Shown: positions 14,464 to 17,379 of the stretch, piece after piece | How the letters are laid out: each line of letters starts with the position of its first letter | Position numbering within the stretch: position 1 is the stretch's first letter | IMG/VR virus record: IMGVR_UViG_3300034093_000597 | Coordinates: 1-22,098 of that record | Reading direction: 5' to 3' (one strand) | DNA length: 22,098 bases | Source: a virus | Notes under the pieces: generated by a model | The model's input: the letters and a program-made list of their open reading frames with translations, nothing else | What the model was told of the DNA's origin: nothing | Databases searched by the model: none | Translations under genes and position numbers: made by a program

Positions 14464-14687
14464 TGTAAACTGTTTTTAATATATGCCCCTATTGTTTGAA
14501 TGCCCGAACCGCAAGTCCAACACACCAAAAAACCAAACCCGATTAAATGCTGCGCTATTCTGTGATAGTTGCCCCTATCTTCTATTGATATTTCCCCTGC
14601 AAAGTTGCCGCTTGCCATCCTTAAAATAGTGTCGCGCTTTGACTCAACCCATGCAGCATCCTGCTCACTCAAAACATTGTTGGCCAT
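14454..14687 (-). CDS. Small CxxC protein of unknown function
   Basis: A 77-residue protein if started at ATG 14687. Longer frames begin at GTG (14798) or ATG 14696. I prefer 14687 because a GGAAG precedes it and the extra N-terminal residues read like the shadow of the upstream membrane gene, which it overlaps by 19 bases. It is mostly helical: WVESKRDTILRMASGNFAGE, then EDRGNYHRIAQHLIGFG, then VCWTCGSGIQTIGAYI with a lone CxxC. The single pair is too little for a structural zinc site alone, so it may form a dimeric site or a disulfide. I do not recognise the family. It follows the sigma-like and membrane genes and precedes the GT2 gene. Confidence 0.6.
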   Translation of the reverse strand: MANNVLSEQDAAWVESKRDTILRMASGNFAGEISIEDRGNYHRIAQHLIGFGFLVCWTCGSGIQTIGAYIKNSLQWH

Positions 14688-14899
14688 ATCTTCCATAAGG
14701 TTTGACGGGTTAAAATTGCAGCTCCAATAAATACTACAGCATCTACTGTGGTGAAATGCAATAAGGCAAAAGCCAAAGAACACCACCAGACCATGCACAT
14801 CGAGCAGTTGAACGGTTTGTATGGTATCTGCTTAGTGAACTCGGTGACGGCCATCGCTATAATAGCAATAAATGCGCCCGATACTATTAGTTCAATCAT
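14669..14899 (-). CDS. Small multi-pass membrane protein, unknown
   Basis: A 76-residue, very hydrophobic protein. Likely membrane helices are at residues 3-20 (ELIVSGAFIAIIAMAVTE) and ~34-64, probably two closely spaced passes. Between them is KPFNCSMCMVWWCS, a CxxC followed by aromatic residues, a motif style seen in small membrane proteins of phages and bacteria. The C-terminus is short and ends RQTLWKIWPTMF. The start is a clean ATGA overlap with the sigma-like gene. Size and topology would allow a holin, but no lysin is adjacent and I see nothing specific, so the role is unassigned. Confidence 0.65.
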   Translation of the reverse strand: MIELIVSGAFIAIIAMAVTEFTKQIPYKPFNCSMCMVWWCSLAFALLHFTTVDAVVFIGAAILTRQTLWKIWPTMF

Positions 14900-15378: not shown

Positions 15379-15735
15379 TTAAGGCTCAACATCCTTAGCA
15401 ACCGTCACAAATTGCCCTTTATTGTTTCGCTTACGCCCTGTTAACGTGCGAGCGGTTAAGTGCTGGATTGTTTCCTTAGCGGCTTTTAACTCCCTATCCT
15501 TCGCATCATATTCTTTGTCAGCTTCGAGTAAGTCATCTTCAAGTTTCTTTGATACTTCAATCTCAACTTCGTAAAGTTTTCGCATGGTTGTGATTGCCTT
15601 AATCGAAATTTCTTTGTCCTCCAACAGATCTGCTATCCTTTCATCCTTTTGGTGGATAATTGCAAAGAGAACACCACACGCAAGGGTTAACGTGGCTGCG
15701 ATAAATACTGGAATTGTCAAAAGTACAGGGTTCAT
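15379..15735 (-). CDS. N-terminally membrane-anchored coiled-coil protein
   Basis: A 118-residue protein with one membrane helix at residues 4-28 (VLLTIPVFIAATLTLACGVL) followed by a charged coiled coil at ~30-95 (KLEDDLLEADKEYDAKDREL) and a basic tail RKRNNKGQFVTV. This topology (short N-terminus, one helix, long coiled coil) resembles inner-membrane spanins, and a DUF5675 gene lies ~0.7 kb upstream, so a lysis role is conceivable. However, the RNNKGQFV tail also occurs in many phage proteins of unknown role, and no outer-membrane lipoprotein partner is seen. Clean ATG at 15735, no Shine-Dalgarno. Function unassigned. Confidence 0.6.
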   Translation of the reverse strand: MNPVLLTIPVFIAATLTLACGVLFAIIHQKDERIADLLEDKEISIKAITTMRKLYEVEIEVSKKLEDDLLEADKEYDAKDRELKAAKETIQHLTARTLTGRKRNNKGQFVTVAKDVEP

Positions 15736-16418: not shown

Positions 16419-16877
16419 CTATGAATTATACCACTTTTTAAAGTCATAAATCTCCATAGTGTTACTCTTAATGGTCAACTCAAACCCATCAGGAAACATA
16501 AGCATCAACCCAGCGAATGTAGGCTTGGAGTTTACGATGTCAAGTATGCCATCCTTGTTGATGTCGGCCATTGCAGAACCTACCAATACGCAGCCTTTGA
16601 TGTCACTTTGCCCAGTTTTCGGGTTAATGCTCCCAGCGTAATTGCCCCAATGGATTAGCACAAAAGAACGGTTCGGCACGTTGGTAATGTGTAGGTGTCT
16701 GCCATACTTTGCCGAGTGACGTGGAACAACTTGATACACGCCTTCGGGTATGCAACTAATCTTTGCCGCGTTATCCTTCCAAGCCAGTTCTAAAGTCTTG
16801 CATTTAAAATTACCAATCACCAATTCGCCTGGCGTTTGGGTTGGTGTGTATTTTCGGGTTAGGGTTGCTTTAATCAT
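16419..16877 (-). CDS. DUF5675 family protein with dockerin-like calcium loop
   Basis: A 152-residue protein matching the DUF5675 pattern as I know it: a Thr/Gly-rich start with TPGELVIG, TLELAWKDNAAKISCIPEGV at 28-47, PNRSFVLIHWGNYAG at 68-82, and SDIKGCVLVG at 91-100. The His in IHWGN and the later Gly-Cys recall the HG...GC layout of L,D-transpeptidase-like enzymes, so a wall-acting or lysis role is plausible but unproven. Residues 105-116 read D-I-N-K-D-G-I-L-D-I-V-N, with ligands at positions 1, 3, 5, 9 and 12 like a dockerin or EF-hand loop. There is no signal peptide. Its ATG overlaps the stop of the 53-residue gene (ATGA). Family call fairly sure, function inferred. Confidence 0.8.
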   Translation of the reverse strand: MIKATLTRKYTPTQTPGELVIGNFKCKTLELAWKDNAAKISCIPEGVYQVVPRHSAKYGRHLHITNVPNRSFVLIHWGNYAGSINPKTGQSDIKGCVLVGSAMADINKDGILDIVNSKPTFAGLMLMFPDGFELTIKSNTMEIYDFKKWYNS

Positions 16878-17035
16878 TCGTTCAAATCTTTATAGAATAG
16901 TCTTTGTTGCTGCACGCTGAATAGCATAACGTGTATTGGTGTCGGCTTAATTACCTCTTTGCACACGTGCGGCTCGAAAGCAGCAAGTGGGCAAAGTAGG
17001 CATGAGATGTAATATGTGATTGCTAATGTGCGCAT
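16874..17035 (-). CDS. Unrecognised 53-residue protein with hydrophobic N-terminus
   Basis: A small frame that fills what would otherwise be a 157-base gap. It starts at ATG 17035, which shares one base with the SSB stop (TGATG), and ends at a TGA overlapping the DUF5675 ATG (ATGA). The protein begins MRTLAITYYISCLLCPLAAF, a basic residue then a hydrophobic stretch like a signal peptide or a single membrane helix, then EPHVCKEVIKPTPIHV and a polar end. Perfect couplings on both sides make it very likely real. Next to a candidate wall-acting protein, a small secreted or lysis-related role is possible. It has three cysteines (12, 15, 25). No family recognised, and the lipobox is not convincing. 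Confidence 0.65.
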   Translation of the reverse strand: MRTLAITYYISCLLCPLAAFEPHVCKEVIKPTPIHVMLFSVQQQRLFYKDLNE

Positions 17036-17379
17036 CAGAAAGGAAGCATATCCGCGTCAATATCTTCAACTGGTGCACTTACGGCTTGAGGTGGTGCACT
17101 TTGCTTTTGAGGTGGTGCACTTTGCCCAGCGGTCAATTTCCATCCCGTTATGCTTGGGTAATACTTGCCCGAATATTCACGGCCGCCTAAATTAATCTCG
17201 ACCGATACGCTTTGACCGATACGCAGCCCGTCAAGTAGCGCGATGTTTTGTTTGGTAAACTCAATCGGGGTCAAATTATTGAACTTTTCCTCCGTTGCAA
17301 CTACCAGCAATCGCTTGCTGAATTTGTCGCTTATTACTTCTGTTTGTCCAATGTGGTGAACTGTGCCTGTGATTGTCAT
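17035..17379 (-). CDS. ssb: Single-stranded DNA-binding protein (DUF3127, OB-fold)
   Basis: A 114-residue DUF3127-type OB-fold protein, an SSB analogue in Bacteroidota and their phages. GTVHHIGQTEVISDKFSKR at 5-23 and LVVATEEK are the first strands. FTKQNIALLDGLRIGQSVSV at 41-60 and GKYYPSITGWKL at 71-82 complete the barrel. A disordered Pro/Gln linker (repeats of QSAPPQ) leads to an acidic tip, EDIDADMLPF, which matches the SSB C-terminal tail used to recruit replication and recombination partners. It lies last in the recombination set, after ERF and Gp157-like genes. The linker is encoded by a 21-base direct repeat. Function is well supported by the fold pattern plus tail. Confidence 0.85.
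   Translation of the reverse strand: MTITGTVHHIGQTEVISDKFSKRLLVVATEEKFNNLTPIEFTKQNIALLDGLRIGQSVSVEINLGGREYSGKYYPSITGWKLTAGQSAPPQKQSAPPQAVSAPVEDIDADMLPF
17086..17125 (-). repeat. 21-base tandem repeat in SSB linker
   Basis: Two near-identical copies of a 19-base unit (plus strand TTGAGGTGGTGCACTTTGC) begin at 17086 and 17107, a 21-base period, with a partial third copy (TGGTGCACTT) at 17071-17080. In protein they give seven-residue repeats of QSAPPQ in the flexible linker before the acidic tip. The period is a multiple of three, so copy-number change would alter linker length without a frameshift. Confidence 0.85.

Follow-up and report, generated by a model that had tools for sequence, protein, structure and literature searches.

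The window analysed here is the whole of a virus record of 22,098 bases; within the phage collection, the terminases closest to its own, at 49% identity, come from Flavobacterium phages. On its minus strand, read directly from the window, lies an open reading frame of 53 residues that starts with the ATG at 17035-17033 and ends with the TGA at 16876-16874 (Table 1); the product of this copy is MRTLAITYYISCLLCPLAAFEPHVCKEVIKPTPIHVMLFSVQQQRLFYKDLNE. Its upstream neighbour is an SSB-like gene, itself preceded by Gp157-like and Erf-like genes, and its downstream neighbour is a DUF5675 gene. The first-pass annotation had described the small gene as fitting exactly between these two, and both overlaps are indeed exact: the stop codon TGA of the SSB-like frame at 17037-17035 forms TGATG with the ATG of the small gene, and the start of the DUF5675 gene at 16877 forms ATGA with its stop.

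Table 1. Features of the 53-residue gene and its surroundings in the window
Feature	Position	Strand	Basis
53-aa gene	16874..17035	-	ORF reading; 24 relatives; purifying selection
TGATG stop/start overlap: stop of upstream SSB gene and start of 53-aa gene	17033..17037	-	
ATGA stop/start overlap: stop of 53-aa gene and start of downstream DUF5675 gene	16874..16877	-	
Upstream neighbour, SSB-like, DUF3127 / phrog_4932 single-strand binding protein	17035..17379	-	Pfam and PHROGs
Downstream neighbour, DUF5675 (PF18925), modelled L,D-transpeptidase fold	16419..16877	-	E 3.9e-27
Spanin-like candidate with N-terminal hydrophobic segment and coiled coil (by eye), 1.3 kb downstream	15379..15735	-	Weak: phrog_6631 (unknown) E 0.0026, phrog_13 Rz-like spanin E 0.0058
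Residues 1-19, signal-peptide-like segment	16979..17035	-	Simple rules: R2; no K, R, D, E, H, N or Q at 4-20; C12 and C15 inside; SPase I-like site after A19
Residues 20-53, predicted exported part, 34 aa	16877..16978	-	Alignment: invariant E21 P22 H23 V24 C25 K26, P33 H35 V36, Q43 Q44, F47 Y48

Relatives of the small gene were collected from IMG/VR, where the first search returned 15 contigs, a profile search 24, and a second profile search the same 24, with copies of 58-98% identity. A degenerate DNA pattern for C-x2-C-P-x3-[YF]-E-P-H-x-C matched these 24 contigs and no others in IMG/VR; both the profile scans and the pattern are built on short conserved stretches, so that more distant relatives may escape detection. 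Together with the window, the contigs provide 25 copies, which after removal of five duplicates represent 20 distinct ORFs; all counts of 20 given below refer to the distinct ORFs. All 20 are open and encode 52-56 aa counted from the aligned ATG (an earlier in-frame ATG is present in L056 and L057), and the gene is intact in L001, L006, L013, L015 and L059. Conservation of the frame in relatives had been proposed earlier as a check on the gene, and frame-breaking changes were found in none of the 25 copies.

Comparison of all pairs of the 20 distinct ORFs by the Nei-Gojobori method gave pN 0.158 and pS 0.618, a ratio of 0.256. Variable columns number 28, 18 and 48 at codon positions 1, 2 and 3, respectively, each out of 51, and stops occur in 99 of the 100 other-frame readings (five frames in 20 ORFs). 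The ORF is short and without a known family, which would suit a chance open frame between two genes; this explanation is refuted by the conservation data, namely the frame kept intact on 24 contigs at the above identities, the low pN/pS ratio and the closed alternative frames, and the gene is moreover kept beside differing neighbours. We regard its probability as negligible. The sequence comparisons thus indicate that the 53-aa ORF is a real, well conserved phage gene.

Searches with the 20 members gave no match in Pfam up to E 10 or in PADLOC up to E 1, and nothing credible in NCBIfam (best E 0.095, for one member) or PHROGs (best E 0.087). Nothing credible was found among the PDB sequences (best E 0.094) or, for two queries, among phage records (best E 2), and plasmids gave zero matches. 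The earlier impression that the gene is of no known type is therefore sustained for Pfam, PHROGs, NCBIfam, PADLOC and the PDB sequences. Literature searches on DUF5675, on spanins and small membrane proteins of Bacteroidetes phages, on small metagenome genes and on exclusion likewise returned no mention of the 53-aa protein. As far as homology searches can tell, the family is an orphan that belongs to none of the catalogued families found, and its kind is an ordinary one, that of small phage accessory proteins.

Several candidate matches were rejected. Two matches in cellular genome contigs (L064 and L065) cover 17 residues and fall within a BamA-like gene (named by reading), on its strand but in a different frame, and a third (L093, E 3e-4, from 395 genomes of the phylum of the L065 genome) overlaps, likewise out of frame, a chain-length-determinant-like gene (by eye). 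Since none of the three shares the frame of the gene on which it falls, they were set aside as chance matches. A PDB profile match of the family to a region of MutY (E 0.094-0.1) was also dropped.

Comparison of the 20 distinct loci revealed four genomic settings of the small gene: (i) in the window type, comprising 12 loci, it lies between the SSB gene and DUF5675, separated from the latter by an extra gene in L011 and L013; (ii) in L015, L056, L058, L059, L060 and L061, it directly follows c10, a gene of 69-70 aa, and comes before small genes, a methylase-like gene (by eye) or, in L015, a primase-like gene; (iii) in L055, a 70-kb contig, it lies beside a phrog_4301 gene; and (iv) in L063, it lies shortly before a DNA polymerase-like gene (by eye). 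In five of the six loci of the second setting, an M15 gene comes after SSB, with its start 1.9-3.0 kb upstream of the small gene, the sixth locus, L058, covering only 1.1 kb upstream; the M15 gene of L015 corresponds to the phrog_465 endolysin (E 2.7e-38). The start of the small gene overlaps the upstream stop in 18 of the 20 loci, the upstream gene being SSB in eleven of them (BLASTP E 1.8e-21 or better), c10 in six and c106 in one. The exceptions are L013, with a one-base gap after SSB, and L055, with a 32-base gap. The upstream genes c10 and c106 gave no BLASTP alignment with each other (hhalign E 0.82), and comparison of c10 with the window gene c8 gave an hhalign E of 7.7e-4 at a probability of 25%.

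Retention of the small gene was assessed on contigs found via other genes. Among the contigs found via c5, a marker of the window type, all 14 that cover the region carry the small gene, while two more end inside c5; the contigs found via c10 carry it in six of six cases. None of 25 distant DUF5675 loci (L029-L053) lies on a contig matching the family pattern, many of these contigs being fragments on which a diverged copy could escape. Thus, the small gene is kept within its own phage groups and in differing settings, and neither the small gene nor DUF5675 requires the other.

A protein of 119-132 aa was observed in L055 (5165-5527), directly beside the small gene, and in L063 (3846-4205) and L011 (4232-4630), within about 2.2 kb of it. 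This protein belongs to phrog_4301 (unknown function), the PHROG match being obtained from the L055 copy only.

Alignment of the 20 members shows that M1, Y8, C12, L13, C15, P16, A19, E21, P22, H23, V24, C25, K26, P33, H35, V36, Q43, Q44, F47 and Y48 are invariant; C12, C15, H23 and C25 form an invariant set of four Cys/His residues, to which the likewise invariant H35 may be added. Residue 2 is R in 17 members and K in three. Positions 4-20 contain no K, R, D, E, H, N or Q in any member, and the first such residue after residue 3 is at position 21. Within residues 14-25, the sole site that fits our own (-3,-1) rule follows the invariant A19 in all 20 members, with a variable -2 position (A/V/L/I/F) and an invariant -1 position. 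By these simple rules of our own making, the Sec/SPase I features, i.e., a basic n-region, an uncharged h-region and a (-3,-1) site, are present in 20 of 20 members, in keeping with the signal-peptide-like or membrane N-terminus read from the window at first pass. For the window peptide, the chance of residues 4-20 being free of the seven residue types, calculated from composition, is 7e-4. A further signal-peptide rule was drawn up with the family already in view. Of the 322 distinct ATG ORFs of 40-70 aa from 20 sources, 21 conform to it, comprising 16 of the 17 family ORFs and 5 of the remaining 305; the family ORF that does not is L056, for which the script picks the earlier ATG.

The hydrophobicity of the N-terminal segment is modest or marginal (KD17 1.60-2.61 in the 20 members), and the KD15 maximum of a peptide is reached by 21% of its shuffles for the window copy and by 1.5% to 20% for the other 19. 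Beyond residue 20, the highest 15-residue KD value lies between -0.14 and 1.23 in all 20 members, so that a second, C-terminal hydrophobic segment is absent, and the lipobox pattern [LVI][ASTVI][GAS]C near the N-terminus was found in none of the 20. The AlphaFold model of the protein is poor (pLDDT 59, pTM 0.34), with helices including residues 2-13 and 41-52. A Foldseek search with this model against viral models gave one match (E 7.6), which is meaningless at such model quality and was discarded.

Among the possible readings of these features, the one that we put first, at somewhat less than an even chance, is that the product is a small protein exported to the envelope, where it serves host takeover or exclusion. 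It would be translated, through the observed overlaps, by stop/start coupling within a replication/recombination operon, the neighbours of which include recombination genes and, in relatives, a primase-like gene. The Sec-type N-terminal segment (R/K at position 2, uncharged positions 4-20 and Ala19 at -1) would take the C-terminus across the inner membrane, and signal peptidase may then cut after A19 or the segment may remain as a weak anchor. The 34-residue exported part, with its invariant EPHVCK, P-x-H-V and QQ-x-x-F-Y, would act in the periplasm or at the membrane during infection, and its role, the weakest step of the scheme, would most likely be that of a host-takeover or superinfection-exclusion factor rather than of a lysis part. 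The conservation of the gene and its frame and the N-terminal helix of the low-confidence model are consistent with this scheme. As a class, small exported superinfection-exclusion proteins of phages may be likened to the family, which is short, predicted to be exported and found in differing phage settings.

The invariant C12, C15 and P16 inside the supposed signal peptide count against export, since disposable signal peptides seldom keep exact residues. Residues 1-19 are, moreover, about as constrained (pN/pS 0.272) as residues 29-51 (0.309), and the modest hydrophobicity, matched by about a fifth of the shuffled window peptides, and the weak model also speak against an exported product.

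The same invariant residues could instead belong to a cytosolic metal-binding mini-protein, in which C12-x2-C15-x7-H23-x-C25 (with H35) would hold a zinc ion and the protein would have a host or phage protein, or nucleic acid, as its binding partner, as is frequent among small phage takeover proteins. This explanation draws on the invariance of each of the five residues in 20 of 20 members, on the position of H23 and C25 within the most constrained stretch of the protein (residues 20-28, pN/pS 0.108), and on the many neighbours that are DNA-metabolism genes. The five invariant Cys/His residues are reminiscent of short zinc-binding phage proteins; however, the C-x2-C-x7-H-x-C arrangement matched no family model, zinc families included, and the N-terminus is hydrophobic. 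All members have, close to the N-terminus, a run of seventeen residues that lacks K, R, D, E, H, N and Q, which is odd for a soluble finger, and the model shows helices and no zinc fold, although its confidence is too low for the fold to be judged. Export is favoured over a metal-binding protein by the charge pattern and by the variable -2 and invariant -1 positions, and we rank the latter second, as a doubtful alternative.

An improbable further variant would make the family a new kind of microprotein, in which the invariant C-x2-C-P in or at the edge of a membrane helix and the H-x-C just outside it form a thiol or metal site close to the membrane, through which a host envelope protein (receptor, secretion or redox) is altered during infection. 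The gene would then be a stop/start-coupled single-gene cassette passed between different phages, probably of Bacteroidota.

The position of the small gene before DUF5675 in the window raises the question of a function in lysis. When the DUF5675 model (pLDDT 82) was realigned to the Foldseek candidates, the best matches were chains of the L,D-transpeptidase fold; 19 of the top 23 rows are so titled, and the other four (Bd1075, two of Pgp2, and Csd6) have the same fold. The top structural rows reach Z 8.7 to 7.2 over 92-102 residues with rmsd 2.6-3.4, versus Z 2.6 or less for unrelated rows; best Z values of 7-8 are, however, often obtained with models that have no clear match, and the Foldseek search of DUF5675 by itself was not significant (best E 0.79). 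All 17 aligned DUF5675 sequences share H76, G95 and C96, which fits the His and Gly-Cys motif of the L,D-transpeptidase family, and in five relatives the place of DUF5675 after SSB is occupied by the M15 endolysin. Judging from the model, DUF5675 (PF18925, 'unknown function') is likely a phage wall enzyme of the L,D-transpeptidase type, so that the wall-acting neighbour proposed at first pass is plausible.

Two other features of DUF5675 loci were observed. An inserted open frame interrupts the DUF5675 gene in L004 (5452-6267) and L011 (3137-3951); this frame (cluster c30), itself in two pieces in L011, carries Cys/His motifs that look HNH-like by eye, as would suit a homing endonuclease. In other phages, another small Cys-rich protein is encoded a short way upstream of DUF5675 (L044:1983-2126, L046:4871-5023, L049:4844-5017, L051:1996-2148, L052:2363-2539, L033:501-689 and L039:115-273), with W11, C12, P16, E18, C19, C23 and C29 invariant in 7 of 7 sequences; its kinship with the 53-aa family was considered and rejected (hhalign probability 0.1).

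The small gene is genuinely, though loosely, linked to lysis. In 17 of the 20 distinct loci, a candidate endolysin gene has its start no more than 3 kb away; it is adjacent or one gene off in the 12 loci of the window type and several genes off in five. Spanin-like genes occur within 3.3 kb in the same 17 loci (c6, 1.3-3.3 kb downstream, in 12; c18, 0.9-1.8 kb upstream, in five) and are never adjacent to the small gene. No gene of the DUF5675 or M15 clusters was found within -3.5 to +4.5 kb of the small gene in L055 and L063, and neither of the spanin-like clusters c6 and c18 near L055, L063 or, within its short upstream coverage, L058.

These distances bear on the hint of the first-pass annotation at a holin or spanin, and on the rival reading in which the product would be a lysis part, such as a small holin, antiholin or spanin subunit helping a nearby wall enzyme. 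The place beside or one gene from DUF5675, with its modelled L,D-transpeptidase fold, in 12 of 12 window-type loci, the endolysin and spanin-like genes in the vicinity of 17, and the single hydrophobic N-terminal segment agree with such a role, and the candidate endolysins within 3 kb weigh against exclusion or takeover as compared with lysis. The hint nevertheless fares poorly, since the lipobox and a C-terminal hydrophobic segment are absent from all members, the M15 gene lies several genes off in L015, L056, L059, L060 and L061, no endolysin is recognised near L055 and L063, and the family pattern matches no contig among those of the 25 distant DUF5675 loci, many of which are fragments. In the five loci with M15, in addition, the genes between M15 and the small gene include membrane or coiled-coil candidates (by eye) of the M15 gene's own.

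Comparison with known lysis proteins gives a similar picture. Rz1-type o-spanins are small outer-membrane lipoproteins of phage lysis; the 53-aa family is like them in its small size, its export-type N-terminus and, in the window type, its place in a phage operon beside a likely wall enzyme, but it has no lipobox and is not adjacent to a spanin-like gene in the surveyed loci. A unimolecular spanin combines an N-terminal export signal with a C-terminal membrane segment, and the latter is lacking in all 20 distinct members. Holins with one membrane segment share with the family the short length, the one N-terminal hydrophobic segment and the basic residue 2, whereas the modest hydrophobicity, the three invariant Cys residues and the lack of a recognised endolysin near L055 and L063 set the family apart. 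We consider a lysis part unlikely and rank it third, after the exported envelope protein and the cytosolic metal-binding protein.

Other candidates for lysis genes were observed nearby. In the window, the 76-aa product of positions 14669-14899 of the minus strand looks like a holin by eye, having some three hydrophobic segments; searches of Pfam and PHROGs up to E 0.1 gave no match. Downstream of the M15 endolysin, L015 (3804-4184), L056 (4140-4508) and L060 (3225-3593) encode proteins of 122-126 aa with a signal-peptide-like start, a coiled coil and a C-terminal hydrophobic segment (by eye), an arrangement like that of a unimolecular spanin; the L015 protein gave no credible family match. A report on flavophages describes membrane proteins near the endolysins and unimolecular spanins in some of these phages (PMC8776804).

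The family described here adds a well-supported orphan to the very small phage genes that are missed by family libraries. Its conserved positions, with their unusual Cys/His pattern, provide a clear set of residues to mutate, and one short gene holds tight start/stop overlaps beside differing neighbours. Since other relatives keep the small gene several genes away from any recognised endolysin, it should not be named after the wall enzyme that adjoins it in the window.
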